Positions 4,998 to 32,672 of a DNA stretch of 64,000 bases are shown here, piece after piece. Each line of letters starts with the position of its first letter. Position 1 is the stretch's first letter. Below the pieces are notes generated by a model. The model searched no databases. It saw only the letters and a program-made list of their open reading frames with translations, and was not told the origin of the DNA. Both the position numbers and the translations under genes were made by a program. Source of the stretch: Beroe forskalii. Taxonomy: Eukaryota > Ctenophora > Nuda > Beroida > Beroidae. The stretch lies in assembly GCA_011033025.1 (NCBI GenBank), contig WFMF01000091.1, positions 434,001-498,000 on the forward strand, written 5' to 3'.

Positions 4998-5177
4998 GTA
5001 CCTTGGGGTGGTACCTTGTGATGTAGCTATTTAGATTACTTTTCTACCTATAACTGAATAAATCACGGTAATAGCTTTAGATCATATCTGAGTATTCAGG
5101 TACCTCTCTGACACATACTTAGTTGTCACGATTTAAAGCTATTTAATAAGATTGATTGAGAACCCCTCTTTCTTCAG

Positions 5178-5316
5178 GGAAGAGGAAGCTATCAAGTTGG
5201 ACGGTTTGAACGTTTCCCAGATGAAGGCAATGAGAGATGAGGCAGAGAAGCACAACTATCAGGCTGAGGTGAACAGGATGATGAAACTCATCATCAACTC
5301 TCTCTACAGGAACAAA
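5178..5316 (+). CDS. HSP90B1: Endoplasmin (GRP94), exon 3: start of the ATPase domain (truncated)
   Basis: The acceptor TTCTTCAG is followed by [20 protein letters not shown], then [20 protein letters not shown] and SLYRNK. This is the beginning of the Hsp90 N-terminal ATP-binding domain; [16 protein letters not shown] is the GRP94 form of the first conserved Hsp90 helix. The exon then runs directly into unreliable homopolymer sequence with no donor visible. The remaining ATP-binding domain (roughly 280-300 residues, with the catalytic Glu, nucleotide-binding DxGxG and lid) is not represented. It is presumably an assembly loss rather than a biological one. Confidence 0.85.
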
Positions 5317-6914
5317 GTTTTTACTTGATTTTTACCCCAAACCCCCAAAAAAAAGGGGGGGAAAAAAAAGGAAAAAAAAAAAGGGGGAAAGGGGGGAAAT
5401 TTTTAACCCCCCAAAAAAGGGGTTTTTTTTTTTTTTTGGGGGGAAAATTTTTTTAAAAAAAACCCCCCTTTTCCTTTTTTTTGGGGGCCCTTTTTTAATT
5501 AAAACCCCCTTTTTTTTTTTAAAAAAAAGGGGGGTTTTAATAAAAAAAGTAAAATTTTTTTTAAAAATTTATTTTTTCCCCCAAAAAACTTTTTTTTTTT
5601 ATTTAATTTTTAAAGGGTCCCTTAAAATTTTTTTTTTCCCCCCCCCCCCCTTTTAAAATTTTTTAAACCTAAAAAAAAAAATTTTAAAAAAAGGGGGGGG
5701 AAGCCCCCAAAAAATTTTTTTTCCCCCCCCCCCAAAACCCCCTTTTTGGGGCCCCCGGCCCCCGGGGGGGGGCCCCCCTCCCCGGGGAGGGGGCCCAAAA
5801 AATTTTTTTCCCGGGGGCCCCCCTTTTTTTTAAAAAAAAAAATTTGGGGGGGGGGGGCCCCCCCCCCCGGGGGGGAAAAAAAAAACCCCCAAATTTAACT
5901 TTTTAATTTTGGGGAAAAACCCCTTTTTTTTCCCCCCCCCCCAAAATTTAAACCCCCCTTTTTTTTAAGGGAAAAAACAAAAAAAAATTTTTCCCCCCCC
6001 CCCCCCTTCTCCCCCCCCCAAAAAAAAATTTTTAAAATTTTGGGGTTTAAAAAAAAGGAATTTTTTTTTTCCCCCCCAAAAAATTTTTTTTAAAAAAAAA
6101 AAACCCCCTTTTTATTTTTTTTTTTTTTTTTTTTTAAAAATTTTAAAAAATTTAAATTTAAAAATTTTAAAGGGTTTTTGGTTTTCCTTTCCTGGAAAAA
6201 AAATTTTTTTTTTGGGGCCCTTTTTTAAAGGGGTTTTTAAGGGTTTTTTTAAAAAACCCCAAAAATTTTTTAAAAATTTTTTTTTTTTTAAAATTTCCTT
6301 TTATTTTTTTAAAATTTTTTTTTCCCCCCCTTTTTAAAAATTTTAAATTTGGAAAAAAAAAAAATTTTTTTGGGGAAAAATTTTTCCAAATAATTTTTTT
6401 TTAAATTTATTTTTTTTTTAAAAAAAAAAATTTTTTTTTTTTTTTAAAAAAAAAATTTTTTTGGGGCCCACCAAACCCCGGGAAAAAGGGGGGGAAAAAA
6501 AAGGGGGGGGGAAAAAAAAAAAAAAAAAATTTTTTTTTTTTTTGGGGGGAAAAAAAAAAAAAAAAAAGGGGAATGCCCCCGGGGGTTTTTCCCCCTTTTT
6601 TTGGGGGAAGGAAAAAAAAAGGGGCCCCCCCAAAAAAAACCCCCTTTTAAATTTTTTTTTAAAAAAAAAAATTTTTTTAAAAAAATTTTTTTTTGGGGAA
6701 AAAAATTTAAGGGGTAAAAAAAAATTTTTTTGGGTTTTTTTAAAAAATTATTTTTTTTGGTTTTTTTTTTTAAAAATTTTAAAGGGCCCTTTTTAAATTT
6801 GGGTTTTTTTTTTTGGGGGGTTTTTTGGGTTTTTTCCCCCTTTCTAAAAAATTTTTTTTTTTGGGGGTTTTTTTCCCAAAAAAAATTTTTTAAAAATTTT
6901 CCCCTTTTTTCTTT

Positions 6915-6947
<33 letters not shown>

Positions 6948-7309
6948 GGGGGAAAATTTTTTTTAAAAAGGGTTTTTTTTTGGGTTTTCCCCCTTTTGTT
7001 TTTTTTTTTAAATTTTTTTTTTTAAAAGGGGTTTTTAAAATTTTTAAAAAACCTTTTTTCCCCTTTTGGAAAATTTTTTAAATTTTTTTTAAAAAAATTT
7101 TTTTTTTTTTTTTTTAAAATTTTTTTTTTTTTTTTTTTCCACCTTTAAATTTTTTTGGGGGGGGGCCCCTTTAAAAACCCTTTTAAAAAAAAAAAAAATT
7201 TTTTTTAAAAATTCCCTTTTTTAAAAAAAAAAATTTTTTTTTTTAAAAAATTTTTTCCCCTTTTTTGGGTATTTTTTTTTTTCCCCCCCCTTTTTTTTTT
7301 TTCCCCCAA
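5317..7309. other. Unreliable homopolymer-inflated sequence replacing GRP94 exons
   Basis: Almost every base here is in a run of 3-20 identical bases, with A, C, G and T runs alternating. This is unlike any natural coding or intronic sequence and unlike both flanks. It starts abruptly after exon 3 and ends abruptly before [12 protein letters not shown] read it as low-quality consensus or gap-fill. All open frames inside (poly-Lys/Phe/Gly/Pro) are meaningless. Confidence 0.85.
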
Positions 7310-7493
7310 AAAATCTGGCTGAGGAACCCCAAGGACGTGGAGGATGCGGATTACAACGCGTTCTACAAGAGCTTCAGCAAGAACAGTGACGACCCCCTGG
7401 CTCATGTTCACTTCTCCGCAGAGGGAGAGGTTACCTTCCGATCCATCTTGTTTGTGCCAAAGACCGCTCCTTACGATCTCTACCAAGACTACG
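7310..7493 (+). CDS. HSP90B1: Endoplasmin (GRP94), middle-domain exon
   Basis: Reliable sequence resumes in frame with [20 protein letters not shown], then [20 protein letters not shown] and [20 protein letters not shown]. This is the start of the Hsp90 middle domain; FYKSFS and HF-AEGEV-F-SILFVP are diagnostic of GRP94 rather than cytosolic Hsp90. The donor G|GTGCGT leaves phase 1. The 5' edge of the exon is obscured by the low-quality block. Confidence 0.85.
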
Positions 7494-7656
7494 GTGCGTG
7501 GAAATCCTAGCTTTCTTAAACCGAAATATTATCATGTAAATTACGACGAATTGATCCCATGTTCTCTGCCATTTTCTCTTTCGAATTCTTTTAAGTGATA
7601 CTGATACCAATTTTTACTAAAATGACATTTTTGATTGATATTTTAATGTATTGCAG

Positions 7657-7751
7657 GCAAGAAGGTTGACAACATAAAGATGTACGTCAAGAGAGTTTTC
7701 ATCACTGACGATTTCGAAGAAATGATGCCCAAATACCTTAACTTCATCAAG
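7657..7751 (+). CDS. HSP90B1: Endoplasmin (GRP94), middle-domain exon
   Basis: The acceptor TATTGCAG is followed by GC completing a Gly codon, then [20 protein letters not shown] and [11 protein letters not shown], with donor [30 protein letters not shown] is the canonical Hsp90 middle-domain strand-helix segment. Length is 95 bp; phases match both neighbours (1 in, 0 out). Confidence 0.92.
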
Positions 7752-7899
7752 GTAATTTGAAACTTTTTCCGGGACAGAAGGGACTTTATCTTGATTCAGT
7801 AGTTCATGAAGAATGAGATTGAAATAGCCCCACAGATTTCCAAATGATTTCTTCCTTGGAACCCAATTCCTGCCATGCTGTAATAACATATCATTTCAG

Positions 7900-8979
7900 G
7901 GTGTGGTAGACAGCGATGACTTGCCTCTGAACGTCTCGAGAGAGACCCTCCAACAGAACAAGCTGCTCCGAGTCATCAAGAAGAAGCTGGTCCGCAAAGC
8001 CCTGGACATGCTGAAGAAGATGAGTGATGACGACTACAAGGAGTTCTACCGGGAGTTCGGAACTAACGTAAAGCTCGGAGTCATGGAGGACCACAGCAAC
8101 AGGAACAGACTGGCTAAGCTGATCCGCTGGCAGTCCAGTAACGACGAGTCGGAGATGACCTCCCTGACAGACTACCTGGAGCGGATGAAGGAGAAACAGG
8201 AGCACATCTACTTCATGACGGGTACCTCCAGGGCAGAGTGCGAGAAGTCTCCCTTCGTGGAGAAGCTGCTGAAGAAGGGCTACGAGGTCCTGTATCTGGT
8301 GGACCCCATTGACGAGTACACCGTCCAGAACCTCCCTGAGTTCGAGGGCAAGAAGTTCCAGAACGCCGCCAAGGAGAACCTCAACCTCCAGGAGTCGGAG
8401 AAGGCCAAGGAGACCATGGAGGTCCTCGGACGAGAGTTCGATCTGCTGATGACATGGCTGAAAGACAAGGTCCTGAGTGCCGGTATTGACAAGGCTATCC
8501 TCTCTACCCGTCTGGTGAACTCGCCCTGCGCCCTTGTTGCCACCCAATACGGATACTCCGGTAACATGGAACGAATCATGAAGTCCCAGGCTTACGCCAA
8601 AGCCGGATCAGTGGAGGGAGGAAACCAGAAGAAGATCCTCGAGCTGAACCCCTTCCATCCCATCATCCAGGAACTGAACAGACTCTACAAGGAAGATGCT
8701 GAGTCTGATGCTGCCCTCGACCTGGCTAATGCTCTCTACGACACTGCACTGCTCCGGTCTGGGTTCTCTCTGAAGGACACCACTCAGTTCAGTGACAGGA
8801 TGGACAAGCTGCTCCGACGTAGCTACAACATCGACATGGACGCCACAGTGGAGATCCCCGAAGAGTTCGACGCTGAGGAGGAGGAGGAGAAGGTTGAGGA
8901 GGAAGGGGAAGAGGCCGAGGAGGAGGTTGTGGACGAGACCGTGGAGGAAGATTCAGAAGAAATTCGGGATGAGTTATAA
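7900..8979 (+). CDS. HSP90B1: Endoplasmin (GRP94), terminal exon: middle and C-terminal domains, RDEL
   Basis: The 359-codon exon begins [20 protein letters not shown], the catalytic-loop region of the Hsp90 middle domain. It carries [20 protein letters not shown], the client-binding region, [20 protein letters not shown], and the C-terminal dimerisation helices ([19 protein letters not shown]). An acidic Glu-rich tail (about residues 323-355 of the exon) ends in EEIRDEL and a TAA stop. RDEL is a KDEL-type ER-retention signal, confirming ER-luminal endoplasmin. The frame is open and uninterrupted, with codon use richer in G+C than the flanks. GRP94 is an ATP-dependent chaperone for secreted and membrane clients. 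This gene copy can make a full product only if the missing ATPase exons exist in the real genome. Confidence 0.95.
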
Positions 8980-10471
8980 ACTGTTGAACTCACAGAATAG
9001 CACGTTTCATAAAACGTCTTGACGCAACCCTTTCCTTTCCATCAGAAGTTATAGATTTGCATTCTAGTTACATAATGCAGTTAAATTATTCCATCCATAT
9101 GATAACAGCGATCGTTTGTGGAAAATGTTGCAAACTTTTTAAACATGCTTAATGAAGGTTTAATTGTTTGTTTTTGGACATTTTTCTGAGATAACCATCA
9201 ATTTATTTCAAATGTATAGATCTTTATCAATATCTTAACGTAAAATATTTGATATGAATAGTAGAATTTTTCTGTACCTAGTCATGCTATGATGCTGCTA
9301 TAGCTTTTTTGGGCCACACCATCCCTTTCACTCTTGATTGTCTTAAATTTTTACAATGTTTATAATATATTTGATGATGATATAGCTTTGGTATTCGATT
9401 GTTATGTTATTCACCTTATTTAAGTTTGTGACGAAACTAAAGAAAACGTTGTGTTGAATGTGTTAGATATCAAAGTAATTAAATAGTTGACGAGATTATT
9501 ACTACTGTAAATCAATGGAAAGTGACTTAACTCAATCAATGCTCACTGGGAATGGGATGGGCAAAAATCATTTTTATGTTCATAGCCCACTATTGAAAGA
9601 CATTTTGATATTTCCAGCTGTAGGCATTCTACAATGATTCATTGTAGAATGTAGATTGCCTACAGCTGGAAATATCGAAATGTAGATTTCAATAGTGGGC
9701 AATGAACATTAAAAAAAACTTTGGGACAATACCATTACTTTTTATGCTTTTAAAATCGCTGTAGGTACTTTGAAATTTAAATCCAGATGAAAGTTTGATT
9801 TCAGATTTTGCATAGAACAAATACTGTGAAACATAAAATACCCCAAAAAATTGCCCCTTATCTGAACGGGAACCAAGAAATAATTTTAACCAATAAAATT
9901 TATGTAGAATCATATTCATTCAAATATCAAATTTAACCATGCGATATTTCATCAGTTTTCTAAAAATAAATTATATTAATTCTTATCTGATTTGAAATTT
10001 TAATGGTTTTATAGGGATTATTTCTGAGCATGCGATTATCTGTATCCCATTCAACTTTACTTTTATCCATGTCCCAATGCTATCCTATATTTTGCCAGTT
10101 CTAATGCTATCGTGTTCCAGTTCTAATGCTATCGTGTTTCAGTTCTATTTCTAATGCTATCGTGTCCCAGTTCTAATGTCCCAGTCGCTCTATCATCTGC
10201 CCCGACCTCTGCTATCTTTCTGTTTTCCGTGTGTTATTGATATCAATATATCAGTCCAGCATCTTTGTAATCCAAAGTCTGAGGTCTCTTGTTGCTTTCA
10301 CCAAGTAGCTCTGAGTGGAAATTAGATCATTATTGAGCTTTGAAATTATTTTCATATGATATCAATCGAATAATTGAACAATTTCGGTGCGCAAAGGCCA
10401 GTTTAATCGAAGCTGCATTAAAATTCTTCAAGTTCAAATCAAGGTGTGACCGGGTAAAAAAGCTACAATCA
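8980..10471 (+). other. GRP94 3' UTR and 3' flank
   Basis: AT-rich non-coding sequence. AATAAA occurs at about 9893 and 9966 and is a possible polyadenylation signal. A short run of about four CAGTTCTAATGCTATCGTGT units lies at 10095-10190. The block is repeated almost unchanged after the second GRP94 tail (17948-19474). Confidence 0.5.
9577..9709. repeat. Near-perfect inverted repeat (hairpin) downstream of GRP94
   Basis: Arms of about 63 bp, starting ATGTTCATAGCCCACTATTG and ending with its complement, fold around ATTCTACAATGATTCATTGTAGAAT. It contains the stem word TTTCCAGCTGTAGGC. It resembles a small MITE or foldback. The same hairpin is present at 18545-18675 in the second copy. Confidence 0.75.
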
Positions 10472-10623
10472 TTAAACTGCAAGTCTAACCGGGTGTAGGT
10501 TGGTGATGGTCACGATGTGATGGAGAGTAGAGAGTCCTTCCTCATGACCCAGCAGTCTGGTAACTGACTCCAAAATACAAGCTCCAGCTATCACACTGGG
10601 TGGGTGCAACACAGACTCGTACT
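10472..10623 (-). CDS. Divergent cyclin (copy A), last recognised exon
   Basis: After the acceptor AATGTTTCAG the exon completes a Glu codon and reads EYESVLHPPSVIAGACILES, then VTRLLGHEEGLSTLHHIVTI and TNLHPVRLAV before TAA. YES-L-HPPSVIAGA is the conserved second cyclin fold (consensus YxxxxxPSxIAAA). Splicing from ...LLPVLYM plus G gives LYM-EYESVLHPPSVIAG, with phases matching (1/1). The C-terminus is short for a cyclin; a donor-like CCG|GTTAGA at 10486-10487 might extend the gene. The first seven codons of this exon, with its acceptor, are the founder of the adjacent 41-bp minisatellite. Confidence 0.75.
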
Positions 10624-11190
10624 CTGAAACATTGAGATGGTAGGTGCAACACAGACTCGTACTCTGAAAAGCTGAAACATTGAGATGAGTGGGTGCAACA
10701 TTGACTCGTACTCTGAAACATTGAGATGAGTGGGTGCAATACTGGCTCGTACTCTAAAACATTGAGATGAGTGGGTGCAATACTGGCTCGTACTCTAAAA
10801 CATTGAGATGAGTGGGTGCACTGTGCAGCACTGACTCGTACTCTGAAACATTGAGATGAGTGGATGCAACACTGACTCGTACTCAGAAACATTGAGATGA
10901 GTAGGTGCAATACTGGCTCGTACTCTAGAACATTGAGATGAGTGGGTGCACTGTGCAGCACTGACTCGTACTCTGAAACATTGAGATGAGTGGGTGCAAC
11001 ATTGACTCGTACTCTGAAACATTGAGATGAGTGGATGCAACACTGACTCGTACTCAGAAACATTGAGATGAGTAGGTGCAATACTGGCTCGTACTCTAGA
11101 ACATTGAGATGAGTGGGTGCAGCACTGAACGGTACTCTGAAACATTGAGATGAGTTGGTGCAGCACTGACTCGTACTCAGAAATATAAAG
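10603..11190. repeat. 41-bp minisatellite derived from the cyclin splice acceptor (copy A)
   Basis: About 14 units (array length over period) of 41 bp. On the minus strand each unit reads AGTACGAGTCAGTGTTGCAC, then CCACTCATCTCAATGTTTCAG. It therefore consists of a pyrimidine-rich acceptor ending TTTCAG followed by the first codons (EYESVLHP) of the downstream cyclin exon. Some units carry a 5-base CTGTG insertion. Open frames across the array are spurious. Confidence 0.9.
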
Positions 11191-11249
11191 CTGAGTAAAA
11201 GAGAGATGAGTTTAAGAACTGGTAGTGGTAGTGGTAGTGACTGGACCAC

Positions 11250-11932
11250 CTGTACTTACCCATGTAAAGGACTGGCAGCAAGTTGTAGGCGTGGTGCAGG
11301 ACCACCTGTACTTACCCATGTAAAGGACTGGCAGCAAGTTGTAGGCGTGGTGCAGGACCACCTGTACTTACCCATGTAAAGGACTGGCAGCAAGTTGTAG
11401 GCGTGGTGCAGGACCACCTGTACTTACCCATGTAAAGGACTGGCAGCAAGTTGTAGGCGTGGTGCAGGACCACCTGTACTTACCCATGTAAAGGACTGGC
11501 AGCAAGTTGTAGGCGTGGTGCAGGACCACCTGTACTTACCCATGTAAAGGACTGGCAGCAAGTTGTAGGCGTGGTGCAGGACCACCTGTACTTACCCATG
11601 TAAAGGACTGGCAGCAAGTTGTAGGCGTGGTGCAGGACCACCTGTACTTACCCATGTAAAGGACTGGCAGCAAGTTGTAGGCGTGGTGCAGGACCACCTG
11701 TACTTACCCATGTAAAGGACTGGCAGCAAGTTGTAGGCATGGTGTAGGACCACCTGTTCTTACCCATGTAAAGGACTGGCAGCAAGTTGTAGGCGTGGTG
11801 CAAGACCACCTGTACTTACCCATGTAAAGGACTGGCAGCAAGTTGTAGGCGTGGTGCAGGACCACCTGTACTTACCCATGTAAAGGACTGGCAGCAAGTT
11901 GTAGGCGTGGTGCAGGACCACCTGAGCCACCT
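11250..11932. repeat. 56-bp minisatellite derived from the cyclin splice donor (copy A)
   Basis: About 12 almost identical units. On the minus strand each is GTGGTCCTGCACCACGCCTA, CAACTTGCTGCCAGTCCTTT, ACATGGGTAAGTACAG. This is the end of the upstream cyclin exon (VVLHHAYNLLPVLYM) plus the donor G|GTAAGT and 5 further bases. The highest-coordinate unit (11877-11932) is the genuine exon end. Because 56 is not a multiple of 3, frames rotate, and every third unit has a stop made by the TAA of the donor itself. Confidence 0.92.
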
Positions 11933-12044
11933 CGCTGGTGAACTCCTCTGATATCCGGGCGGTGTAAGAGTAGAAGTAGTCCGTGGGGAGGACCAACTCG
12001 TCTGCGTCAACACTCACAGCGTTCAGAAACTGCTCTTCTATCTT
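11876..12044 (-). CDS. Divergent cyclin (copy A), third recognised exon
   Basis: The acceptor TTCCTGCAG is followed by KIEEQFLNAVSVDADELVLP, TDYFYSYTARISEEFTSEVA and QVVLHHAYNLLPVLYM plus one base, then donor G|GTAAGT. It corresponds to the end of the N-terminal cyclin fold and the linker into the second fold (pattern: E---L---------P-DYF, then a helix leading to LL----Y). Length 169 bp, phase 0 in, phase 1 out. Its last 56 bases seeded the donor minisatellite. If a donor one to two units further downstream were used, the frame would not match the next exon; beyond that an in-frame stop appears. Confidence 0.75.
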
Positions 12045-12255
12045 CTGCAGGAAGAGATTAAGATTTATAACTATAAGAAAGCAATACCATACTGTTATCA
12101 TATAAACCCAATTAATGCTTTCATTTATGATTTATCAGTATCTGACTAGTAAAAATGATTCTGATGGTGTGATTCAACCAATCAACACGCAGTACTCGTA
12201 TGATTCTGTACAGTGCTTGTTGATTGGCTGAGTAATTGGGGTGCTATAAACATAC

Positions 12256-12471
12256 CTTGAGCTTGTTGAGTCTGATGTAGTTTTGGAGAGTCTTGCTGAT
12301 CCCCAGAGGGGGAGTATCCCTCTCTAGCACCCTGCTGCAGGCTATGAGGGCTGTCAGAGCCACGTCCTGGAGGTCTTGTGGAGCCACGGTCTCCACGGAG
12401 AGGTACCTGTCAAACAGGCAGCAGACAGCAGGGAACAGGGACACTGAGCTGCCCTCTGTAGTGTCGATCAG
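12256..12471 (-). CDS. Divergent cyclin (copy A), second recognised exon: cyclin box
   Basis: The acceptor CTTCCCCAG is followed by LIDTTEGSSVSLFPAVCCLF, DRYLSVETVAPQDLQDVALT, ALIACSRVLERDTPPLGISK and TLQNYIRLNKLK, with donor AAG|GTATGT. LFDRYLS is the hallmark of the cyclin box (L-DR-L), and LQ-VALTALIA-S matches the next helix (LQLVGITALLIASK in canonical cyclins). Exon 1 ends TLDWVFE, so the join reads MRSMTLDWVFELIDTTEGSS, matching MR-IL-DWL-EV. The product is clearly a cyclin but too divergent for me to name the subfamily. Cyclins bind and activate CDKs. Confidence 0.85.
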
Positions 12472-12559
12472 CTGGGGAAGGTGCAGAGGATTGGATGGAT
12501 GAAATAAAAATTCCCAATTGTTTTTTTCATTTGTCATTTGTCACCCCCCTCCCCTTGTA

Positions 12560-12675
12560 TTGTCTGGCGTTGCCTGTAATAATGGGTCTGACGACGTCAG
12601 ACAACCCTTGTAGTTGTCAGGCGTTGCCTGACCCCATTAAAATAATGGGTCTGACGACGTCAGACAACCGCCCCC
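12560..12675. repeat. Small repeat with palindrome GTCTGACGACGTCAGAC
   Basis: AATGGGTCTGACGACGTCAG occurs at about 12580 and 12644, separated by its inverted relative TTGTCAGGCGTTGCCTGACC. Related words (GTCCGACGACGTCA, GTCAGACGTTGTTTGAC) recur at 52.2 kb and 61.5 kb. It is absent from the equivalent place in copy B, so it is probably a small mobile sequence. Confidence 0.5.
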
Positions 12676-12834
12676 CCCGTTAGGAAAATGGATCCATTGT
12701 TTAAGGATTAAACTGATGGCCAAACGCCCAATTAAATCGCCCAACAAGTACAACGCTGTGAATCCACTTCCAACGGAAAAGAGTAAAGAAAATTGACAAA
12801 TCGCGTGACCTTTTCATCAGTGTTTCAGTCTTAC

Positions 12835-12981
12835 CTCGAAGACCCAGTCGAGTGTCATGGACCTCATGGTGGGGGTGATTCTGTTCCTCTGTTTCAGACT
12901 CAGGTAGTTCGGGTCAGCCAGACAGTGTCTCTCCCTCTGGATGAGGTCTCTGATCTTCTCTTTCCTCCGCAGGCATTTCAT
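12835..12981 (-). CDS. Divergent cyclin (copy A), first recognised exon
   Basis: From a Met codon at 12981 the frame reads MKCLRRKEKIRDLIQRERHC, LADPNYLSLKQRNRITPTMR, SMTLDWVFE, with donor GAG|GTAAGA (phase 0). LKQRNRITPTMRSMTLDWVFE is the start of a cyclin box, including the MR-I--DW motif whose Arg contacts the CDK. The frame stays open upstream to 13113, so the true 5' boundary is unknown. An acceptor-like ATACAG/CTGCAG lies at about 13060. Confidence 0.7.
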
Positions 12982-13499
12982 ACCTCCTCGTATTGCTGGT
13001 CCCCCCTCACTGTAGTGCAGGTCACTGGAGTTCTCTTCTCGGTGTGACAACATATTACTGCAGCTGTATCCTCGTTCTCTGGGTCCTATTGTAGTGCAGC
13101 CAAACGTTATCACAAGTATTCAAATGCGATTGTCAGGGCCTAATTAATCAAAAACCCGTATTTAGGGTGTTGCCCTTTTTTATTGAATAGGCGTGGCCTT
13201 AATTTTCCTGATTGCTATTATGTGAATAATCATAAATACCGTGATGTTTAAATTAAAATCTTTATCATTGCAGCAGCGGTGCTATTCATCGTTAATTCTG
13301 TGGTCGAGACACTGATAATTTTGCATTATTTACAGGGCCACATAATATTCTAATCATGAAATTTACAACAAAACCTAACGCTAACGGATCAAATCCAATG
13401 CAGAAACACAAACTGAGTTGTAAATGCGAAGTTAACTGAATGGCCCGCTTTTCATGTGAATGAAAGTGGTACATAAAACTAAAAGTTGTAATTTTCATT

Positions 13500-13930
13500 T
13501 TTGAAACTGAACGAGATCGACCATCATGATTTCATGAGCTGAGACGAAACCAATGCAATACGAGAATAGGCTATCCCCCGGGAGATGGGAGAAACTATAG
13601 TCGTTATAATACAGCAAACGTCTGCAGTCTGAGAGGAAGACATCTGTAGTCTGAGACTCTGAAGTGTCTGAGACAATATGTGCACGCGATCCCTCCATTA
13701 TAATGCAGTGTCAGTGAGGGAGTACTGCATGACACTCCCTCACCGCACTCACTATTAGCTTGTTTGGAGTATAACGGCTGAGTGCTGCTTGTGCATTGCT
13801 TATCTAGAGAGGACCCCTCCCTTCCTCTCCAGATCTTCAGGGAGAGTGGAACTGGGAGAGTGCTCTTAGGAGGGCTGATATCATGTGTGGGAGACCTCTC
13901 AATGATTTTAATCGTAGTGTACCGATAACT
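13500..13930 (-). other. Possible upstream cyclin exon or conserved flank
   Basis: On the minus strand at about 13715-13900 an open frame encodes SPTHDISPPKSTL, then PLSLKIWRGREGSSLDKQ, then CTSSTQPLYSKQANSECGEG. The same frame is kept in copy B (25600-25840) with few changes, whereas neighbouring non-coding bases carry indels. It could be an N-terminal cyclin exon, but I see no clear splice sites. Confidence 0.3.
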
Positions 13931-13959
13931 CCTACAGAAAAGCCCTTCAGGCCAATTGA

Positions 13960-14545
13960 TTTATTAATTGTGATTTATGTCCAATTGATTTATTGCGTCC
14001 AATTGATCCATTGCATCCAATTGATCCATTGTGTCCAATTGATCTATTGCGTCCAATTGATCCATTGCGTCCAATTGATCTATTGTGTCCAACTGATCCA
14101 TTGTGTCCAACTGATCCATTGTGTCCAATTGATCCATTGTGTCCAATTGATCCATTGTGTCCAATTGATCCATTGTGTCCAATTGATCCATTGTGTCCAA
14201 TTAATCCATTGTGTCCAATTGATTCATTGTGTCCAATTGATCTATTGTGTCCAATTGATCCATTGTGTCCAATTGATCCATTGTGTCCAATTGATCCATT
14301 GTGTCCAATTGGTCCATTTTGTCCAATTGATTCATTGTGTCCAATAGATACATAGTATCCAATTAATCAATTGTGTCCAATTTGGAAGTTATGGATCATT
14401 TGGACATTTAATGGCATAATTGGGCAATACGGACAAATTGGACATAATGGATCAATTAGACATTAATTATCAATCGTATCCAATATATACATTGGACACA
14501 ATGAAGTTGTATCCACTTGATCCATTGTCTTCAAAGTGATCAATG
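13960..14545. repeat. 18-bp satellite CCAATTGATCCATTGTGT (copy A)
   Basis: About 22 units of 18 bp at 13975-14370, decaying to 14545. At about 14395 the orientation switches (GGACATAATGGATCAATT). Because 18 is divisible by 3, the array gives hexapeptide-repeat open frames in several frames on both strands; these are not genes. Copy B has a much longer version. Confidence 0.9.
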
Positions 14546-14639: not shown

Positions 14640-17455
14640 GCTTCCCTACACATGGGATAACCTCATGAAAGCTCCCCTATACACCGCTCCCTAATCTAGG
14701 GATCCCCCGATTGTCCGGGGCTCACCTCTATACCCGGTCTCGCCCATACCAGACTCACCCTTACCTTGGGCTTCGCCATGCCAGGCTCCTGAACCTCGGG
14801 CTTCACCAATGCCTTGGGATAACCCCCGATACAGGGGCTCACCCGTACCAGGCTCACCCTTACCTTGGGCTTCGCCATACCAGGCTCACCCGATCCTCGG
14901 GCTTCACGGATGTTCTGGGATAACCCCGATACAGGGCTCACCCGTACCAGACTCACCCCTTATCTTGGGCTTCACCATACCAGGCTCCACCGAACCTCGG
15001 ACTTCACTGATGTTCTGGGCTCACCCTCAAACATGGCATCACCCATACCGAGGCTCACCCTTACATTGGGCTTCACCGTACCTGGCTCCACCTTATCCTG
15101 GGCTACACTGATGTTCTGGGCTTATCCACAAAACATGGGATCACCCATACCAGGCTCACCCTTACCTTGGGCTTCACCGTACTTGGCTCCACCTAATCCT
15201 AGGCTCCACCATAACTTGGGCTCACCCCTGAAACATGGGATCGCCCATACGAGGCTCACCCTTACTTTGGGCTTCACCGTACTTGGCTCCACCTTATCCT
15301 GGGCTTCGAAGGGCCCCCCATTTTTTGGGGGCCCCTCCGCCCTTATGATAAACCGGCCCCCAAACGGATCCCCCTTAACTCGGCCCCTATACTAACTGGC
15401 CCCCACCCGGCCCCCTATAAAATTTGGGGCCCCCACCAAATTTGGGGCCCCCCCACTCCCAATAACTGGGCCCCCATATCTCGGCTCCCCAATAACTGGC
15501 TCCTCCATACAAATGGTCCCCACCCGGGCCCCCAAAAATAAACCCCCCACTAACTCGGCCCCCACACCTTGGCCCCCGACTGGCCCCCCACAACCGGCCC
15601 CCAAAAACCCCGGCCCCCCCTTAAACCCGGCCCCCAATTTGGCCCCCCGGCAGTGGGCTCCCCCCATCCAACTTGGGCCCCCCTTTTCGGGGGCCCCCTA
15701 CCGCGGGTCCCCGTTTTCAGGCTCCCCATAAACCCCGGGCCCCCGTGCTGTTGGTTTCCCAAAAATTGGGCTCCCCGTTTGTTGGGGTCCCCCTTAGGGT
15801 CCCCGTCTGTTCAGGCTCCCCCCTCCCGGCCCCCGTGGGGGCTCCCCATACCAACGGTCCCCCGCGGGGCCCCCAAAAAACGGGGCCCCCGTGGTTGGGG
15901 CCCCCCCCAGCAGGGGGCGGGGGGCAAAAACGGGGAAGACTGGGGGCCCCGCGGGGGCGGGTTGAGCCCAGCACAAAAGAAAGGGGGCCCCGGCAGGGGG
16001 CGGGAGGGGCTGAAAGCAAAACAATGAAACCCACAGGGGGCCCAAGGGGAGGCCGGGGGGCCCCGGTGGGAAACCCTGAACAGGGGGGTGTTGGGGGGAG
16101 CCGCAGGGAGCCCGGTTGGGGGGAACCCCGGGGGCCATGGGGGGGAAAAACAAGCCCAAGTTGTATGGGGGGGCCTCGAGGGGGGCCCCAAGTTTGGGGG
16201 CCCCTTTTGGGGGGCCCAAGTTAGTTGGGGGAAAAAAAATGGGGCCCAAAATTGTATGGGGGAAAGGGGGGGGGGCCCAAGGTATGGGGGGCCCAGAGGG
16301 GCCCAGTTGTTTGGGGAATTGGGGGGGCCGAGTTTATGGGGGCCCGGTTATAAGGGTTGGGGGGCCGAGTTATTGGGAGGGCCCAGTTAGTATGGGGGGA
16401 AAATTGGGTTGGGGGGCCCATTGTATAGGGGCCGGGGGGTTGGGGCCGAGAGGTTGGGGGCCCCAGTTTATATGGGGTATGGGGGCCCAAAAATTGGGTT
16501 GGGGGGCCCAAAATTTATGGGGCCCCAAATTGGTGGGGGCCGAGTTAGAAGGGGCCCGTTTTATGGGTCCCAAGGGGTATGGGGGGGAGGTTATATGGGG
16601 GGCCGGGAGGGGGAGCCCAAAAAAGGGGGTGGGGGGCCCAAAACTATGGAAAACCGGATAAGGTGGAGGGTTCGGTAGCCCCAAGTAAAAATGAGCCTGT
16701 AGGGGTCCCCTGTTTAGGTGAGCCCAAAGGTGGGCCCAGTTGGGGGGAGCCTGCAGTGGCCCAAGGTAAGGGGGAGCCCGGTAGGGTGACCCATGTTTCT
16801 GCCCCCGAACTAATGGAGGGGGGTGGGCCGGTGGGAAGGGGGCCCAAGTGGGGGGGCCTGGTTTGTCCTGTTTTAGCCCAAACATCAGTGAAAAGGGGGC
16901 GGGGGGCCTGGGATGGGGAAGCCCAAGATGGGTGAGCTTACGGGTGAGCCCTTATCTTATCCCCGAACATCCTAATGGGATTTGGTACCTGGTAGGCAAC
17001 GGGGGGGAAGTGGTCCCTTTTTTTTTAAAAAATTTTCCCGTTTGGAAAAAAAGGTGGAACAGGAAAAAATGGGGATATAGCGGGAAAAGCGGACTTGTCT
17101 CAACTTCCTGAACTGGACCCTTTAAAACCTTAAAATTTTATATGTCGGATCTATCTGGGGATTTATATATAAACAAAAAAAGAGTGGTGCAAAAAGGGAT
17201 TAACGGGAAGGGTAAAATTGCATTTTTTTGAACAGCAGTTTTTAAATTGTGTTTTCAGAAAAAACAAATTTTTCCCAAAATTTTGCCCCTGATTTTTAAA
17301 GGGTTCAAATTAAAAAAAATTTTCGGTTTTTCTTTTTTAAAAGAGGTCCCTTTTAAAACCCCTAATTAATTGGCCCCCTTTAAATTTACGCCCCAAAAAA
17401 ATTTTCCAAAAAGGGTTTTGTTCTCTTTAACCAATTTCTTTGAATGGGAAAAAAA
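14640..17455. repeat. GGGCTTCACC/GGCTCACCC minisatellite decaying into low-quality sequence
   Basis: At 14640-15300 short units such as TACCAGGCTCACCCTTACCT and TTGGGCTTCACC alternate irregularly (33-40 bp spacing). From about 15300 the sequence degrades to GGGGCCCC-type runs. Beyond about 15900 the same words appear on the opposite strand (GGTGAGCCC, CCCAAGGTAAGG), so the array reverses orientation. From about 17000 to the gap it is unreliable homopolymer sequence. Long Gly/Pro-rich frames here are artefacts. Confidence 0.75.
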
Positions 17456-17555
17456 NNNNNNNNNNNNNNNNNNNNNNNNNNNNNNNNNNNNNNNNNNNNN
17501 NNNNNNNNNNNNNNNNNNNNNNNNNNNNNNNNNNNNNNNNNNNNNNNNNNNNNNN
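17456..17555. other. Assembly gap (100 N)
   Basis: Exactly 100 N, a standard placeholder for a gap of unknown size. It is followed immediately by the middle of the GRP94 terminal exon. Confidence 0.99.
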
Positions 17556-17947
17556 TCAGGCCACGCCAAAGCCGGATCAGTGGAGGAGGAAACCAGAAGA
17601 AGATCCTCGAGCTGAACCCCTTCCATCCCATCATCCAGGAGCTGAACAGACTCTACAAGGAAGATGCTGAGTCTGATGCTGCCCTCGACCTGGCTAATGC
17701 TCTCTACGACACTGCACTGCTCCGATCTGGGTTCTCTCTCAAGGACACCACGCAGTTCAGTGACAGGATGGACAAGCTGCTCCGACGCAGCTACAACATC
17801 GACATGGACGCCACCGTGGAGATCCCCGAGGAGTTCGACGCTGAGGAGGAGGAGGAGAAGGTTGAGGAGGAAGGGGAAGAGGCCGAGGAGGAGGTTGTAG
17901 ACGAGACCGTGGAGGAAGATTCAGAAGAAATTCGGGATGAGTTATAA
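17556..17947 (+). pseudogene. HSP90B1: Second copy of the GRP94 3' end (fragment)
   Basis: Near-identical to 8588-8979, with a handful of substitutions over 390 bp. It encodes the C-terminal helices, the acidic tail and EEIRDEL. It starts at the gap edge, and one G is missing near 17585 (GTGGAGGAGG for GTGGAGGGAGG), which shifts the frame of the first codons. It has no upstream exons, so it is an assembly fragment, a duplicate fragment or the other haplotype. The 3' flank through 19474 is collinear with copy A. Confidence 0.85.
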
Positions 17948-18544
17948 ACTGTTGAACTCACAGAATAGCACGTTTCATAAAACGTCTTGACGCAACCCTT
18001 TCCTTTCCATCAGAAGTTATAGATATGCATTCTAGTTACATAATGCAGTTAAATTATTCCATCCATATGATAACAGCGATCGTTTGTGGGTAATGTTGCA
18101 AACTTTTTAAACATGCTTAATGAAGGTTTAATTGTTTGTTTTTGGACATTTTCTGAGATAACCATCAATTTATTTCAAATGTATAGATCTTTATCAATAT
18201 CTTAACGTAAAATATTTGATATGAATAGTAGAATTTTTCTGTACCTAGTCATGCTATGATGCTGCTATAGCTTTTTTGGGCCACACCATCCCTTTCACTC
18301 TTGATTGTCTTAAATTTTTACAATGTTTATAATATATTTGATGATGATATAGCTTTGGTATTCGATTGTTATGTTATTCACCTTATTTAAGTTTGTGACG
18401 AAACTAAAGAAAACGTTGTGTTGAATGTGTTAGATATCAAAGTAATTAAATAGTTGACGAGATTATTACTACTGTATTAATCAATGGAAAGTGACTTAAC
18501 TCAATCAATGCTCACTGGGAATGGGATGGGCAAAAATCATTTTT

Positions 18545-18675
18545 ATGTTCATAGCCCACTATTGAAAGACATTTCGATATTTCCAGCTGTAGGCATTCTA
18601 CAATGATTCATTGTAGAATGTAGATTGCCTACGGCTCGAAATATCGAAATGTCTTTCAATAGTGGGCAATGAACA
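18545..18675. repeat. Hairpin downstream of GRP94 (copy B)
   Basis: Same inverted repeat as at 9577-9709, with a few substitutions (CTACGGCTCG for CTACAGCTGG). Just downstream, copy B has about 60 extra bases (18742-18800) that copy A lacks. Confidence 0.7.
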
Positions 18676-19474
18676 TAAAAAACTTGGGGACAATACCATT
18701 ACTTATGCTTTTAAAATCGCTGTTATGTAGGTACTTTGAAATTTACAATGACAGTTGATCTTCACACAAACAGTGCTCTACCAGATAAATCCGGGAGGTA
18801 CTTTGAAATTTAAATACAGATTTTGCATAGAACAAATACTGTGAAACAAAAAATACCTCAAAAATTGCCCCTTATCTGAACGGGAACCAAGAAATAATTT
18901 TAACCAATAAAATTGATGTAGAATCATATTCATTCAAATATCAAATTTAACCATGCGATATTTCATCAGTTTTCTAAAAATAAATTATTCTTGTCTGATT
19001 TGAAATTCCAATTATAAATGGTTTTATAGTGATTATTTTCTGAGCATGCGATTATCTGTATCCCATTCAACTTTACTTTTATCCATGTCCCAATGCTATC
19101 CTATATTTTGCCAGTTCTAATGCTATCGTGTTCCAGTTCTAATGCTATCGTGTTTCAGTTCTAATGTCCCAGTCGCTCTATCATCTGCCCCGACCTCTGC
19201 TATCTTTCTGTTTTCCGTGTGTTATTGATATCAATATATCAGTCCAGCATCTTTGTAATCCAAAGTCTGAGGTCTCTTGTTGCTTTCACCAAGTAGCTCT
19301 GAGTGGAATTTAGATCATTATTGAGCTTTGAAATTATTTTCATATGATATCAATCGAATAATTGAACAATTTCGGTGCGCAAAGGCCAGTTTAATCGAAG
19401 CTGCATTAAAATTCTTCAAATCCAAATCAAGGTCAAGAAAGCTGCAATGTCAATAATCAAAACTGCAAGTCTAT

Positions 19475-19620
19475 TTAAGTATTAACCGGGTGTAGGTTGG
19501 TGATGGTCACGATGTGATGGAGAGTAGAGAGTCCTTCCTCATGACCCAGCAGTCTGGTAACTGACTCCAAAATACAAGCTCCAGCTATCACACTGGGTGG
19601 GTGCAACACTGACTCGTACT
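19475..19620 (-). pseudogene. Cyclin copy B, last recognised exon
   Basis: Encodes the same EYESVLHPPSVIAGACILES...TITNLHPV as copy A but ends NT-stop instead of RLAV-stop, because of a few inserted bases. The acceptor TGTTTCAG is intact. Other exons of this copy are broken, hence the pseudogene label; if the copy is allelic, the breaks may be sequencing errors. Confidence 0.6.
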
Positions 19621-19715
19621 CTGAAACATTGAGATGGTAGGTGCAACACTGAATTGTACTCAGAAACATTGAAATGAGTGGGTGCAACACTGACTCGTAC
19701 TCTGAAACATAAAAT
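19597..19715. repeat. 41-bp acceptor-derived minisatellite (copy B)
   Basis: Only about three units, against about 14 in copy A, with the same acceptor-plus-EYESVLHP structure. It is followed by a short spacer containing AAACTAAAACTAAAAGAGAG. Confidence 0.85.
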
Positions 19716-19774
19716 TAAAACTAAAACTAAAAGAGAGAGATTTAAAGGACTGGTAGCAAGTTTTACCTGTAGGC

Positions 19775-22700
19775 GTGGTGCAGGGCCACCTGTACCTACC
19801 CATGTAAAAGACTGGCAGCATGTTGTAAGCATGGTGCAGGACCACCTGTACTTACCCATGTAAAGGACTGGCAGCAAGTTGTAAGCATGGTGCAGGACCA
19901 CCTGTACTTACCCATGTAAAGGACTGGCAGCAAGTTGTAGGCGTGGTGCAGGGCCACCTGTACCTACCCATGTAAAAGACTGGCAGCATGTTGTAAGCAT
20001 GGTGCAGGACCACTTGTACTTACCCATGTAAAGGACTGGCAGCAAGTTGTAAGCATGGTGCAGGACCACCTGTACTTACCCATGTAAAGGACTGGCAGCA
20101 AGTTGTAGGCGTGGTGCAGGACCACCTGTACTTACCCATGTAAAGGACTGGCAGCAAGTTGTAGGCGTGGTGTAGGACCACCTGTACTTACCCATGTAAA
20201 GGACTGGCAGCAAGTTGTAGACATGGTGCAGGACCACCTGTACTTACCCATATAAAGGACTGGCAGCAAGTTGTAGGCGTGGTGCAGGACCACCTGTACT
20301 TACCCATGTAAAGGACTGGCAGCAAGTTGTAGGCGTGGTGCAGGACCACCTGTACTTACCCATGTAAAGGACTGGCAGCAAGTTGTAGGCGTGGTGCAGG
20401 ACCACCTGTACTTACCCATGTAAAGGACTGGCAGCAAGTTGTAGGCGTGGTGCAGGACCACCTGTACTTACCCATATAAAGGACTGGCAGCAAGTTGTAG
20501 GCGTGGTGCAGGACCACCTGCTACCCATGTAAAGGACTGGCAGCAAGTTGTAGGCGTGGTGCAGGACCACCTGTACTTACCCATGTAAAGGACTGGCAGC
20601 AAGTTGTAGGCGTGGTGCAGGACCACCCACCCATGTAAAGGACTGGCAGCAAGTTGTAGGCGTGGTGCAGGACCACCTGTACTTACCAGCAAAGGACTGG
20701 CAGCAAGTTGTAGGCGTGGTGCAGGACCACCTGTACTTACCCATGTAAAGGACTGGCAGCAAGTTGTAGGCATGGTGCAGGACCACCTGTACTTACCCAT
20801 GTAAAGGACTGGCAGGCGTGGTGCAGGACCACCTGTGCCACCATGTAAAGGACTGGCAGCAAGTTGTGGTGCAGGACCACCTGTACTTACCCATGTAAAG
20901 GACTGGCAGCAAGTTGTAGGCGTGGTGCAGGACCTGCACTTACCCATGTAAAGGACTGGCAGTAAGTTGTAGGCGTGGTGTAGGACCACCATGTAAAGGA
21001 CTGGCAGCAAGTTGTAGGCGTGGTGCAGGACCACCTGTACTTACCCATATAAAGGACTGGCAGCAAGTTGTAGGCGTGGTGCAGGACCACCTGTACTTAC
21101 CCATGTAAAGGACTGGCAGCAAGTTGTAGGCGTGGTGCAGGACCACCTGTACTTACCCATGTAAAGGACTGGCAGCAAGTTGTAGGCGTGGTGCAGGACC
21201 ACCTGTACTTACCCATGTAAAGGACTGGCAGCAAGTTGTAGGCGTGGTGCAGGACCACCTGTACTTACCCATGTAAAGGACTGGCAGCAAGTTGTAGGCG
21301 TGGTGCAGGACCACCTGTACTTACCCATGTAAAGGACTGGCAGCAAGTTGTAGGCGTGGTGCAGGACCACCTGTACTTACCCATGTAAAGGACTGGCAGC
21401 AAGTTGTAGGCGTGGTGCAGGACCACCTGTACTTACCCATGTAAAGGACTGGCAGCAAGTTGTAGGCGTGGTGCAGGACCACCTGTACTTACCCATGTAA
21501 AGGACTGGTAGCAAGTTGTAGGCGTGGTGCAGGACCACCTGTTACCCATGTAAAGGACTGGCAGCAAGTTGTAGGCATGGTGCAGGACCACCTGTACTTA
21601 CCCATGTAAAGGACTGGCAGCAAGTTGTAGGCGTGGTGCAGGACCACCTGTACTTACCCATGTAAAGGACTGGCAGCAAGTTGTAGGCGTGGTGCAGGAC
21701 CACCTGTACTTACCCATGTAAAGGACTGGCAGCAAGTTGTAGGCGTGGTGCAGGACCACCTGTACACCCATGTAAAGGACTGGCAGCAAGTTGTAGGCGT
21801 GGTGCAGGACCACCTGTACTTACCCATGTAAAGGACTGGCAGCAAGTTGTAGGCGTGGTGCAGGACCACCTGTACTTACCCATGTAAAGGACTGGCAGCA
21901 AGTTGTAGGCGTGGTGCAGGACCACCTGTACTTACCCATGTAAAGGACTGGCAGCAAGTTGTAGGCGTGGTGCAGGACCACCTGTACTTACCCATGTAAA
22001 GGACTGGCAGTAAGTTGTAGGCGTGGTGTAGGACCACCTGTACTTACCCATGTAAAGGACTGGCAGCAAGTTGTAGGCGTGGTGCAGGACCACCTGTACT
22101 TACCCATGTAAAAGGACTGGCAGCAAGTTGTAGTGGTGCAGGACCACCTGTACTTACCCATGTAAAGGACTGGCAGCATGTTGTAAGCATGGTGCAGGAC
22201 CACCTGTACTTACCCATGTAAAGGACTGGCAGCAAGTTGTAAGCATGGTGCAGGACCACCTGTACTTACCCATGTAAAGGACTGGCAGCAAGTTGTAGGC
22301 GTGGTGCAGGACCACCTGTACTTACCCATGTAAAGGACTGGCAGCAAGTTGTAGGCGTGGTGTAGGACCACCTGTACTTACCCATGTAAAGGACTGGCAG
22401 CAAGTTGTAGACATGGTGCAGGACCACCTGTACTTACCCATATAAAGGACTGGCAGCAAGTTGTAGGCGTGGTGCAGGACCACCTGTACTTACCCATGTA
22501 AAGGACTGGCAGCAAGTTGTAGGCGTGGTGCAGGACCACCTGTACTTACCCATGTAAAGGACTGGCAGCAAGTTGTAGGCGTGGTGCAGGACCACCTGTA
22601 CTTACCCATGTAAAGGACTGGCAGCAAGTTGTAGGCGTGGTGCAGGACCACCTGTACTTACCCATGTAAAGGACTGGCAGCAAGTTGTAGGCGTGGTGCA

Positions 22701-23470
22701 GGACCACCTGTACTTACCCATGTAAAGGACTGGCAGCAAGTTGTAGGCGTGGTGCAGGACCACCTGTACTTACCCATGTAAAGGACTGGCAGCAAGTTGT
22801 AGGCGTGGTGCAGGACCACCTGTACTTACCCATGTAAAGGACTGGCAGCAAGTTGTAGGCGTGGTGCAGGACCACCTGTACTTACCCATGTAAAGGACTG
22901 GCAGCAAGTTGTAGGCGTGGTGCAGGACCACCTGTACTTACCCATGTAAAGGACTGGCAGCAAGTTGTAGGCATGGTGCAGGACCACCTGTACTTACCCA
23001 TGTAAAGGACTGGCAGCAAGTTGTAGGCGTGGTGCAGGACCACCTGTACTTACCCATGTAAAGGACTGGCAGCAAGTTGTAGGCGTGGTGCAGGACCCTA
23101 CTTACCCATGTAAAGGACTGGCAGCAAGTTGTAGGCGTGGTGCAGGACCACCTGTACTTACCCATGTAAAGGACTGGCAGCAAGTTGTAGGCGTGGTGCA
23201 GGACCACCTGTACTTACCTGCAGCAAGTTGTAGGCGTGGTGCGGGACCACCTGACTTCAAAGGACTGGCCAAGTTGTAGGCGTGGTAAACCACCTGATGG
23301 CATGTAAAGGACTGGCAGCAAGTTGTAGGCGTGGTGCGTACCCTGTACTTACCCATGTAAAGGACTGGCAGGTTGTAGGCGTGGTGCAGGACCACCTGTA
23401 CTTCTGATCTAGCATGTAAAGGACTGGCAAGTTGTAGGCGTGGTGTAGGACCACCTGTACTTACCCATTG
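19775..23470. repeat. 56-bp donor-derived minisatellite, strongly expanded (copy B)
   Basis: About 65 units (array length over period) of the unit seen at 11250-11932. There are variant units (GTAGACATGG, CATATAAAGG, deletions of 3-10 bp), and higher-order blocks recur: 19985-20420 resembles 22165-22640. The last 300 bases (23215-23520) are scrambled, with shortened units and patches of other cyclin sequence such as GGTCTCCACGGAGGA, suggesting poor consensus. Confidence 0.92.
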
Positions 23471-23519
23471 CCGGTCTCCACGGAGGACTGGTGAACAAGT
23501 TGTAAAAAATTACAGGACC

Positions 23520-23649
23520 ACCCTGTAGGTCACCTCGCTGGTGAACTCCTCTGGGGACATGTCGGGCAGTGTTTGGTCAAAATGGTCCATTGGGGTAAAC
23601 TCACGTCTGCGTCAACGCTCACAGCGTTCAGAAACTGCTCTTCTATCTT
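23520..23649 (-). pseudogene. Cyclin copy B, third exon remnant
   Basis: It starts like copy A (KIEEQFLNAVSVDAD) and has EEFTSEV near its end. The middle (LVLPTDYFYSYTARIS in copy A) is replaced by unrelated, frame-shifted sequence, and the junction with the array is scrambled. It cannot encode the cyclin fold as written. Confidence 0.6.
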
Positions 23650-23837
23650 CTGCAGGAAGAGATTAGATTTATTAGAAAACCATGTCATACTGTCGTCAGA
23701 TAAACCCAGTCAATGTATGATTCATCTCTAGTAAAAATTATTCTGATGGTGTGATTCAACCAATCAACACGCAGTACTCGTATGATTCTGCACAGCGTAC
23801 ATTGTTTGGTCGAGTCATTGGGATGCTATAAACATAC

Positions 23838-24053
23838 CTTGAGCTTGTTGAGTCTGATGTAGTTTTGCAGAGTCTTGCTAATCCCCAGAGGAGGAGTATC
23901 CCTCTCAAGCATCCTGCTGCAGGCTATGAGGGCTGTCAGAGCCACGTCCTGGAGGTCTTGTGGAGTCACGGTCTCCACGGAGAGGTACCTGTCAAACAGG
24001 CAGCAGACAGCAGGGAACAGGGACACTGAGCTGCCCTCTGTAGTGTCGATCAG
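23838..24053 (-). CDS. Cyclin copy B, second exon (intact cyclin box)
   Basis: A 216-bp exon identical in length to copy A, with intact acceptor (TCCTCAG) and donor (AAG|GTATGT). Only two residues differ (VETVTPQ for VETVAPQ, SRMLE for SRVLE). LFDRYLS is preserved. It is the best preserved part of copy B. Confidence 0.7.
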
Positions 24054-24153
24054 CTGAGGAAGGGTTAGACTTAGAGGATTAAATGGATATAATAACACTT
24101 GTCTACTGGACATGTCGCCACTTCTGATCAAAATGGATCCATTGGGTTAAACT

Positions 24154-24501
24154 GGCCAGGTTGCGCAGTGGTTTAGGGTGTCGTGCTTCCAATCGACGAG
24201 AGGTTGGTGGTTCGATTCCCGGCCCTGCCTATCGTGCTAAGGGTGAGGATTCTCACCTAAGCAGCCACACGGTTCACTCAGCCGAGCGTACAGGAAACTG
24301 TGCGGGAGGGTTAAATGAGGAGCTGCCCATTGCAGCGAAGTCTCTGGCGACGAAAGTATGGATTAAAGGTTTACACTTCCTTACACTTCCTTAACCGTCA
24401 CTGGCTTGATTACACTTGAATCCTTCGATTCCTGTCATTGGCTGTTACAGCTGTTGGAATAGAAGTAAAACCATGTAAATAAAAAAAAAAAAATAAAAAA
24501 T
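24154..24501 (+). mobile_element. tRNA-derived SINE inserted in cyclin copy B
   Basis: The head GGTTGCGCAGTGGTTTAGGG fits a Pol III A box and GGTTCGATTCC a B box, at tRNA spacing. The body is about 270 bp and ends in AAATAAAAAAAAAAAAATAAAAAA. Copy A has no such sequence at the matching position (around 12715), so this is a presence/absence difference between the copies. I do not recognise the body family. Confidence 0.75.
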
Positions 24502-24660
24502 AACGCCCTAATATTAATAAATCGTCCAACAACGCTGTGAATCCATTTCCAACGGAAAAGAGTAAAGACTCGCAACTGACAACTCCCGCGGCCTTGTCTG
24601 ACGTTGACAGACCCTCTCGAGAATCAACGCCGCTGGACCAGTGTTTCATTTCAGCCTTAC

Positions 24661-24793
24661 CTCGAAGACCCAGTCGAGTGTCATGGACCTCATGACGGGG
24701 GTGATTCTGTTCCTCTGTTTCAGACTCAGGTTCACTGACAGTGTCTCTCTGAATAAGGTCTCTGATCTTCTCTTTCCTCCGCAAGCACTTCAT
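24661..24793 (-). pseudogene. Cyclin copy B, first exon (frameshifted)
   Basis: It has MKCLRRKEKIRDLIQR and the DNA for MRSMTLDWVFE with donor GAG|GTAAGG. Between them a net loss of 14 bases relative to copy A, in the stretch encoding RERHCLADPNYL, shifts the frame, so the two ends are no longer in one frame. Confidence 0.65.
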
Positions 24794-24859
24794 GCCCCCC
24801 GGTCCTCGTTGTATTGCTGGTCCTCTATTATGTCACTCGAGTTTTTCCGGTCGGTGTGA

Positions 24860-25930: not shown

Positions 25931-25959
25931 ACCAATTGTCCAATCGAATATAACCAATT

Positions 25960-32129: not shown

Positions 32130-32545
32130 CCCTCATCTCACCAACTCACCTCGTTCCCCACCAAATCACCTCGTCCAACCAGCTCACCTCGTCCTCGTCC
32201 CTTGTCCCCTGGTACCAACTCACCTCGTCTTCATCCCCCACCCCATCGTCCCCCTCCTCCTCACTGTCCACATCCTCGTCACTGCCTCCTTCCTCCTCTT
32301 CCCACATCCCTATTTCCCCACATTCTTCGTCCCCTGGTACCAACTCACCTCGTCCTCGTCCCGCACCCCTTCCTCCCCCTGGTACCTACTCACCTCCTCT
32401 TCGTCACCCACCCCCTCTTCCCACCAAATCACCACAACCTCCACCCCACCAACTCACCTCGTCCTCGTCCCCCACCCCCTCGTCTCACCATCTCACCTCG
32501 TCTCTCCTCTTCCACCACACCCTCGTCCCCCTGGAACCAACTCAC
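32130..32545 (-). repeat. Reiterated acidic-exon end plus splice donor in ANP32 (donor minisatellite)
   Basis: In the transcribed direction, downstream of the genuine donor (GACGAAGAAGAG|GTGAGT), degenerate units of the type GTGGGGGACGAGGACGAG, GTGAGTTGGTACCAG repeat to 32130. I count about nine further CGAG|GTGAGT-like donors (some GTGAGC, GTGAGA or GTGATT). At 32195-32310 there is a second, longer copy of the exon core (GGSDEDVDSEEEGDDGVGDE) with its own donor. The repeated unit therefore spans an exon-intron boundary. Confidence 0.8.
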
Positions 32546-32672
32546 CTCTTCTTCGTCCCCCACCCCCTCGTCCCCCTCCTCCTCACTGTCCACATCCTCG
32601 TCACTGCCTCCGTCCTCCTCCTCCTCGTCATACTCGTAATCCTCGTCTGAGTCAGGCTCAGCGTTACCTTCC
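32546..32672 (-). CDS. ANP32: ANP32-family protein, acidic exon
   Basis: The acceptor CACTTTCAG is followed by one base completing an Arg codon, then EGNAEPDSDEDYEYDEEEED, GGSDEDVDSEEEGDEGVGDE, EE, with donor GAG|GTGAGT. It is the acidic domain directly after the LRR cap (FLDGIDR). The phase (2 in, 0 out) agrees with both neighbours, giving a continuous protein of LRR exons, this exon and the tail exon. Confidence 0.75.

Follow-up and report, generated by a model that had tools for sequence, protein, structure and literature searches.

The third intron of a cyclin gene in the window (the whole stretch of 64,000 nucleotides that was analysed) is made up of tandem copies of its own two splice junctions: 12 donor units, each 56 bp long, are separated by about 60 bp of spacer from 14 acceptor units, most of which measure 41 bp. 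The explanation that we favour, with a probability of about 0.7, is a double-ended mirage, in which tandem duplications separately spanned the 5' and the 3' boundary of one intron and the mRNA stays unchanged through use of the outermost pair of splice sites.

The cyclin gene and the arrays of intron 3

The cyclin gene lies on the minus strand and has four exons that form an intact open frame of 251 codons in the first of two copies of the locus. Exon 1 (12835-13053) was defined by its open frame and a GTAAG donor, exon 2 (12256-12471) by the gene model and a protein match. Exon 3 (11876-12044) supplies with its last 46 bases the exon part of the first donor unit, and exon 4 (10472-10623, to the stop codon) follows the outermost acceptor at 10624. 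The spliced protein matches Pfam Cyclin_N at 7e-16 and has a short match to Cyclin_C (22.4 bits) barely over the cut-off of 22. Among PDB entries it aligns best with cyclin D1 (8e-12). The alignment runs without a gap across the joint between VLYM (end of exon 3) and EYES (start of exon 4), so that exons 3 and 4 are adjacent by homology. This adjacency, on which the sequence-only reading had staked its case, is thereby answered as far as sequence goes. The plus strand beside the cyclin gene carries the terminal part of a gene for endoplasmin (HSP90B1), in the frame 7828-8979.

Intron 3 (11875-10624, minus strand, phase 1) is 1252 bases long. Its donor array occupies 11243-11924 (minus strand), where TRF reports 12.2 copies with 98% match. 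Twelve complete units span 11921-11250, the first one being counted with the real exon end, and their donors run from 11875 to 11259. All 12 were verified to have the composition first proposed for them, namely the last 46 exon bases followed by the intron start GTAAGTACAG. The proposal of about 12 identical donors is right in number and slightly too strict in identity: 10 of the 12 units are identical, units 3 and 4 differ by two changes each, and the intron part, which opens with GTAAG throughout (12/12), reads GTAAGT in 11 donors and GTAAGA in one. Donor matches that reach 8 bits number 11 on the gene strand of the array compared to 0.7 in shuffled sequences, which rules out a chance origin of the junction motifs.

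The spacer (11184-11242, minus strand) has the size of about 60 bases given previously and contains the acceptor with the highest predicted strength in intron 3, whose AG ends at 11191. It is followed by the acceptor array (10600-11183, minus strand), whose units are mostly 41 bp and in some cases 48 bp long. The count of about 14 near-identical acceptors stands for the units, but those usable are 11: the AG is kept at the homologous place in 11/14, while three inner units (11178, 11055 and 10884) read TG. The outermost acceptor retains its AG, and one unit has an additional AG 8 bases upstream. The units at 11096, 11055 and at 10925, 10884 are pairwise identical over the 43 bases compared; such recurrence of units as blocks of equal order is the mark of multi-unit duplications. 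Two features of mirages are found here, since the repeat unit spans the exon-intron boundary at either end of the intron and the units carry splice signals (GTAAG in every donor unit, AG in all acceptor units except the three with TG).

The second copy of the locus and other arrays in the window

The block at 8587-14382 recurs in order, as separate matching pieces, at 17557-26322, with the cyclin gene again on the minus strand. The match starts at the second base after a gap of 100 N (17456-17555). This second, diverged copy is probably the other haplotype, which the assembly has put next to the first (odds of about 3 to 1 in our judgement), a true paralogue being the possible alternative. Codon differences between the copies are 8/110 in the HSP90B1 tail, all synonymous, 6/72 in cyclin exon 2 (4 synonymous, 2 non-synonymous) and 1/46 in cyclin exon 4 (synonymous). 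Nucleotide identity is 97.0% in the 3' intergenic piece, 92.6% in exon 1 with its upstream region, 91.3% in the downstream piece and 82.2% in intron 2 with exon 3; intron 1 is poorly aligned (57%). In the second cyclin copy, exons 1 and 3 are interrupted by stops or shifts. Unless this is due to poor sequence at these places, the copy therefore looks broken, and the constraint on the locus is uncertain for this reason.

The donor array of the second copy (19768-23218, minus strand) has 62.6 copies by TRF, and degenerate units extend it to about 23540. Alignment delimits about 68 units (70 aligned pieces including partial ends). Within a core of 62 units, 30 are full matches to the consensus, and the donor nonamer is preserved in 53. 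The exon-side units are degenerate and much of the middle is uniform, whereas in the first copy unit 1 is identical to the consensus. The acceptor array (19596-19710, minus strand) has three units, two with AG and one with TG. The donor/acceptor unit counts are thus 12/14 in one copy and about 68/3 in the other, the two copies being probable haplotypes and possibly paralogues. Such unequal lengths fit the boundary-spanning duplication by unequal exchange or slippage that the sequence-only reading had put forward. Deletions in the second copy touch the donor nonamer in 7 of 11 events (P = 0.004 against random placement), a result that is not relied on as the events were counted by eye with approximate sizes and the choice of test was post hoc. 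Arrays with an 18-bp unit are present in both locus copies (13978-14382 and 25969-28679), that of the second being much longer. An insertion-like segment (24150-24390) in intron 1 of the second cyclin copy resembles a tRNA-derived SINE; ARAGORN detects no tRNA in it. Searches with Rfam (gathering scores) and ARAGORN gave no matches within the 64-kb window. Outside it, 30 bases of the repeat unit were without an exact match in the collections genome_contigs and viral_contigs, and endoplasmin had one relative of 33% identity in viral_contigs.

An array of the same nature is found in a second gene, which, like the second copy of the locus, the sequence-only reading of the cyclin intron does not mention. 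This ANP32-like gene was traced along the minus strand between 44866 and about 31.5 kb. When its pieces are joined they match the PDB entries for ANP32A and ANP32B (6e-20 at best), as does one exon alone. The exon at 32672-32546 ends with GAAGAAGAG and the intron opens with GTGAGTTGGT. Exon end and donor are repeated within the intron, forming a donor-side array (32140-32620, minus strand) whose outermost donor is at 32545. Six inner donors score 10.2-11.4 bits (32457, 32393, 32348, 32223, 32187 and 32149) and weaker ones are also present. Three of the 16 junctions of three genes (cyclin donor 3, cyclin acceptor 4 and the ANP32-like donor) are multiplied nearby, in a count that leaves out the last HSP90B1 acceptor and takes cyclin acceptor 3 at its position in the second copy. 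Two of the three are the finding itself, so that 3/16 is no unbiased rate; among the other 14 junctions, one is multiplied.

From the 127 TRF rows of the window, 18 arrays were taken, one row each, and scored for donor-like sites. Donor-like sites of at least 8 bits are well above shuffled sequences in four of them, namely those of the two cyclin copies, of the ANP32-like gene and at 14739-15307; the remaining 14 arrays have 0-2 such sites on either strand. The array at 14739-15307 has a unit of 100 bp and 14 minus-strand sites that resemble donors and reach 8 bits, compared to 1.9 in shuffles; no exon was identified for it, and it is followed directly by a poor-looking stretch. Three stretches (5001-8000, 15001-17455 and 48001-51000) have 0.21-0.85 of their bases in homopolymer runs of at least 4, two of them adjoin N gaps, and they look of low quality. 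The kilobases from 15001 to 18000 have 0.21-0.38 of their bases in such runs, compared to 0.00-0.15 outside the three stretches. An inverted repeat of 1.36 kb with 98.6% identity, perhaps a mobile element, is found at 40501-41856 and 56483-57838, the second place lying beside arrays of 10-21 bp.

Choice among the splice sites and competing explanations

According to the double-ended mirage, duplications would have happened across the 5' boundary of intron 3 and, separately, across its 3' boundary, and unequal exchange or slippage would later have made the arrays longer or shorter. A duplication that spans a junction would supply its own splice site; joining of the outermost donor (11875) to the outermost acceptor (10624) would therefore leave the mRNA unchanged and turn the extra copies into intron. 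Since splicing at the outermost sites would give back the normal mRNA, duplications across a junction would be tolerated. As the additional units would be merely intronic, they would be nearly neutral, and selection would accept arrays at junctions while rejecting purely exonic ones. In favour of this explanation are the arrays themselves, the open frame of the first copy with its gapless match across the joint, the unequal array lengths of the two copies, the AG that the outermost acceptor retains while three inner units have lost it, and the donor array of the ANP32-like gene.

The coding outcome of other site choices was derived for 156 pairings, which combine the 12 donors with 13 AGs, of which 11 are the regular AGs of the units, one is the additional AG within a unit and one lies in the spacer. 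The native carboxyl terminus is reached in 5/156, with 0, 48, 96, 186 or 201 extra bases, and uninterrupted cyclin results only from the outermost pair. The previous calculation that only the first donor can join in frame has to be extended to donors 2 and 3, and it is right for donors 4-12, which give no in-frame pairing. Predicted strengths come from scoring against a simple consensus table, by which the spacer acceptor at 11191 reaches 11.3 bits, the unit acceptors 5.3-8.4 and the outermost acceptor 6.4. That the strongest predicted acceptor is not the outermost is a puzzle that counts against the favoured explanation, the more so as the AG at 11191 precedes the unit AGs in the path from the donors; it cannot be joined in frame to any of the 12 donors. 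Either exon-side signals override this acceptor or some transcripts are lost.

Alternatively, the arrays could act as a regulator. Inner donors and the strong inner acceptor would then yield frame-shifted products destined for nonsense-mediated decay, and array length would tune the level of cyclin. The 151/156 pairings that miss the native end and the unproductive nature of the acceptor at 11191 are in line with such regulation. Human genes likewise show alternative transcripts that retain boundary repeats: for 66% of the variable-repeat intron modifications in human segmental duplications there is also a transcript in which the repeat stays exonic, according to the available text of that study (PMC2812944), and boundary repeats therefore need not be silent, which counts against the favoured explanation too. 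The lengths of the cyclin arrays vary widely between the two copies, though, unlike those of a tuned device, and the accessible parts of the amphioxus studies report mirages that do not disturb splicing (PMC3087553, PMC3902484). Regulation is accordingly considered improbable, if the least so of the alternatives.

Slightly less credit is given to a dying gene, that is, a locus no longer needed in which arrays grow unrestrained. The second copy combines stops or shifts in exons 1 and 3 with the longest array, and the marginal Cyclin_C match points the same way. The frame of the first copy is nevertheless intact over its 251 codons, and exons 2 and 4 diverge between the copies mainly by the synonymous changes listed above (4 against 2 non-synonymous in exon 2, the single one in exon 4). 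Nested splicing, in which the innermost pair is removed first and outer sites are left intact until the outermost pair remains, agrees with the layout to the extent that pairings avoiding both outermost sites leave both available. It needs equal numbers of donors and acceptors and is judged very unlikely because these are unequal (12 donors and 13 AGs in the first copy, about 68 donors and 2 unit AGs in the second). An assembler origin of the arrays or of their unit numbers, which two N gaps, homopolymer-rich stretches and the apparent haplotype overlap of an imperfect scaffold might suggest, is just as improbable, as both cyclin arrays lie in regions with 0.00-0.07 of bases in runs of at least 4 and two diverged copies share the unit and carry different variants, although exact copy numbers may still be wrong.

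Relation to known mirages and meaning for intron growth

Mirages were reported in amphioxus as minisatellite-like repeats that span exon-intron junctions of Adh, globin, troponin C and PGBD5 genes. They occur at either boundary, many of their units have AG/GT signals, regular splicing is reportedly undisturbed by them, and the accounts place mirages so far in cephalochordates (PMC3087553, PMC3902484). Among the globin genes, BflGb6 is affected on the acceptor side, where two haplotypes have 6 and 3 units, and BflGb9 on the donor side; somatic instability was observed at the Adh3 mirage (PMC3087553). The mirage edges are excluded from homogenisation (PMC3087553, PMC3902484). PGBD5 has two arrays at neighbouring exons, the wording available being somewhat ambiguous on the exact introns (PMC3902484). 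The claim that no case with both intron ends expanded had been described needs to be qualified in that the class itself is known (PMC3087553, PMC3902484); arrays at both ends of a single intron are the new aspect, of which no described case was found in the open-licence literature, a search that did not include the founding Adh paper. As far as these accounts go, cyclin intron 3 resembles the mirages of Adh3, BflGb6, BflGb9, troponin C and PGBD5 in the tandem duplication of an exon-intron boundary with units that carry splice signals, and differs from them by having arrays at both ends of one intron and more units than the globins.

The 31-bp VNTR of the CBS gene is a donor-side case. Intron 7 of human F7 has a variable number of 37-bp repeats, with the authentic donor in the first of them; splicing normally uses no repeated donor other than the most upstream one, which was ascribed to oriented scanning (PMC6627357). 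Its donor layout is like that of cyclin intron 3, whereas the F7 repeats, in the text available, are on the donor side only (PMC6627357). In CBS 844ins68 the intron 7/exon 8 junction is duplicated and the distal site is strongly favoured, yielding normal mRNA; note that the source says "splice donor" while describing an intron/exon junction (PMC2630376). This is a single 68-bp duplication and not an array as in cyclin intron 3 (PMC2630376). By analogy with these two human genes, outermost choice can occur at each end of an intron.

The spliceosome's choice among many identical sites has mostly been studied with artificial duplicates. Cyclin intron 3 is a natural case and provides a natural test, with 12 donors (11 of them GTAAGT) and 11 similar acceptors in one copy, about 68 and 2 in the other, and a correct frame in just 5 of 156 pairings. 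Introns could grow by junction-spanning duplications while the protein stays the same, and the mirage papers, in the portions available, connect such lengthening with intron gain (PMC3087553, PMC3902484). A host outside the cephalochordates would mean that such arrays are more widespread than the mirage literature suggests. A bolder proposal, which we hold only tentatively and regard as rather doubtful, is that in this animal lineage junction duplication is a general and ongoing route of intron growth, hitting two unrelated genes within 64 kb, and that an outermost-site rule may apply at both intron ends even past a much stronger acceptor.
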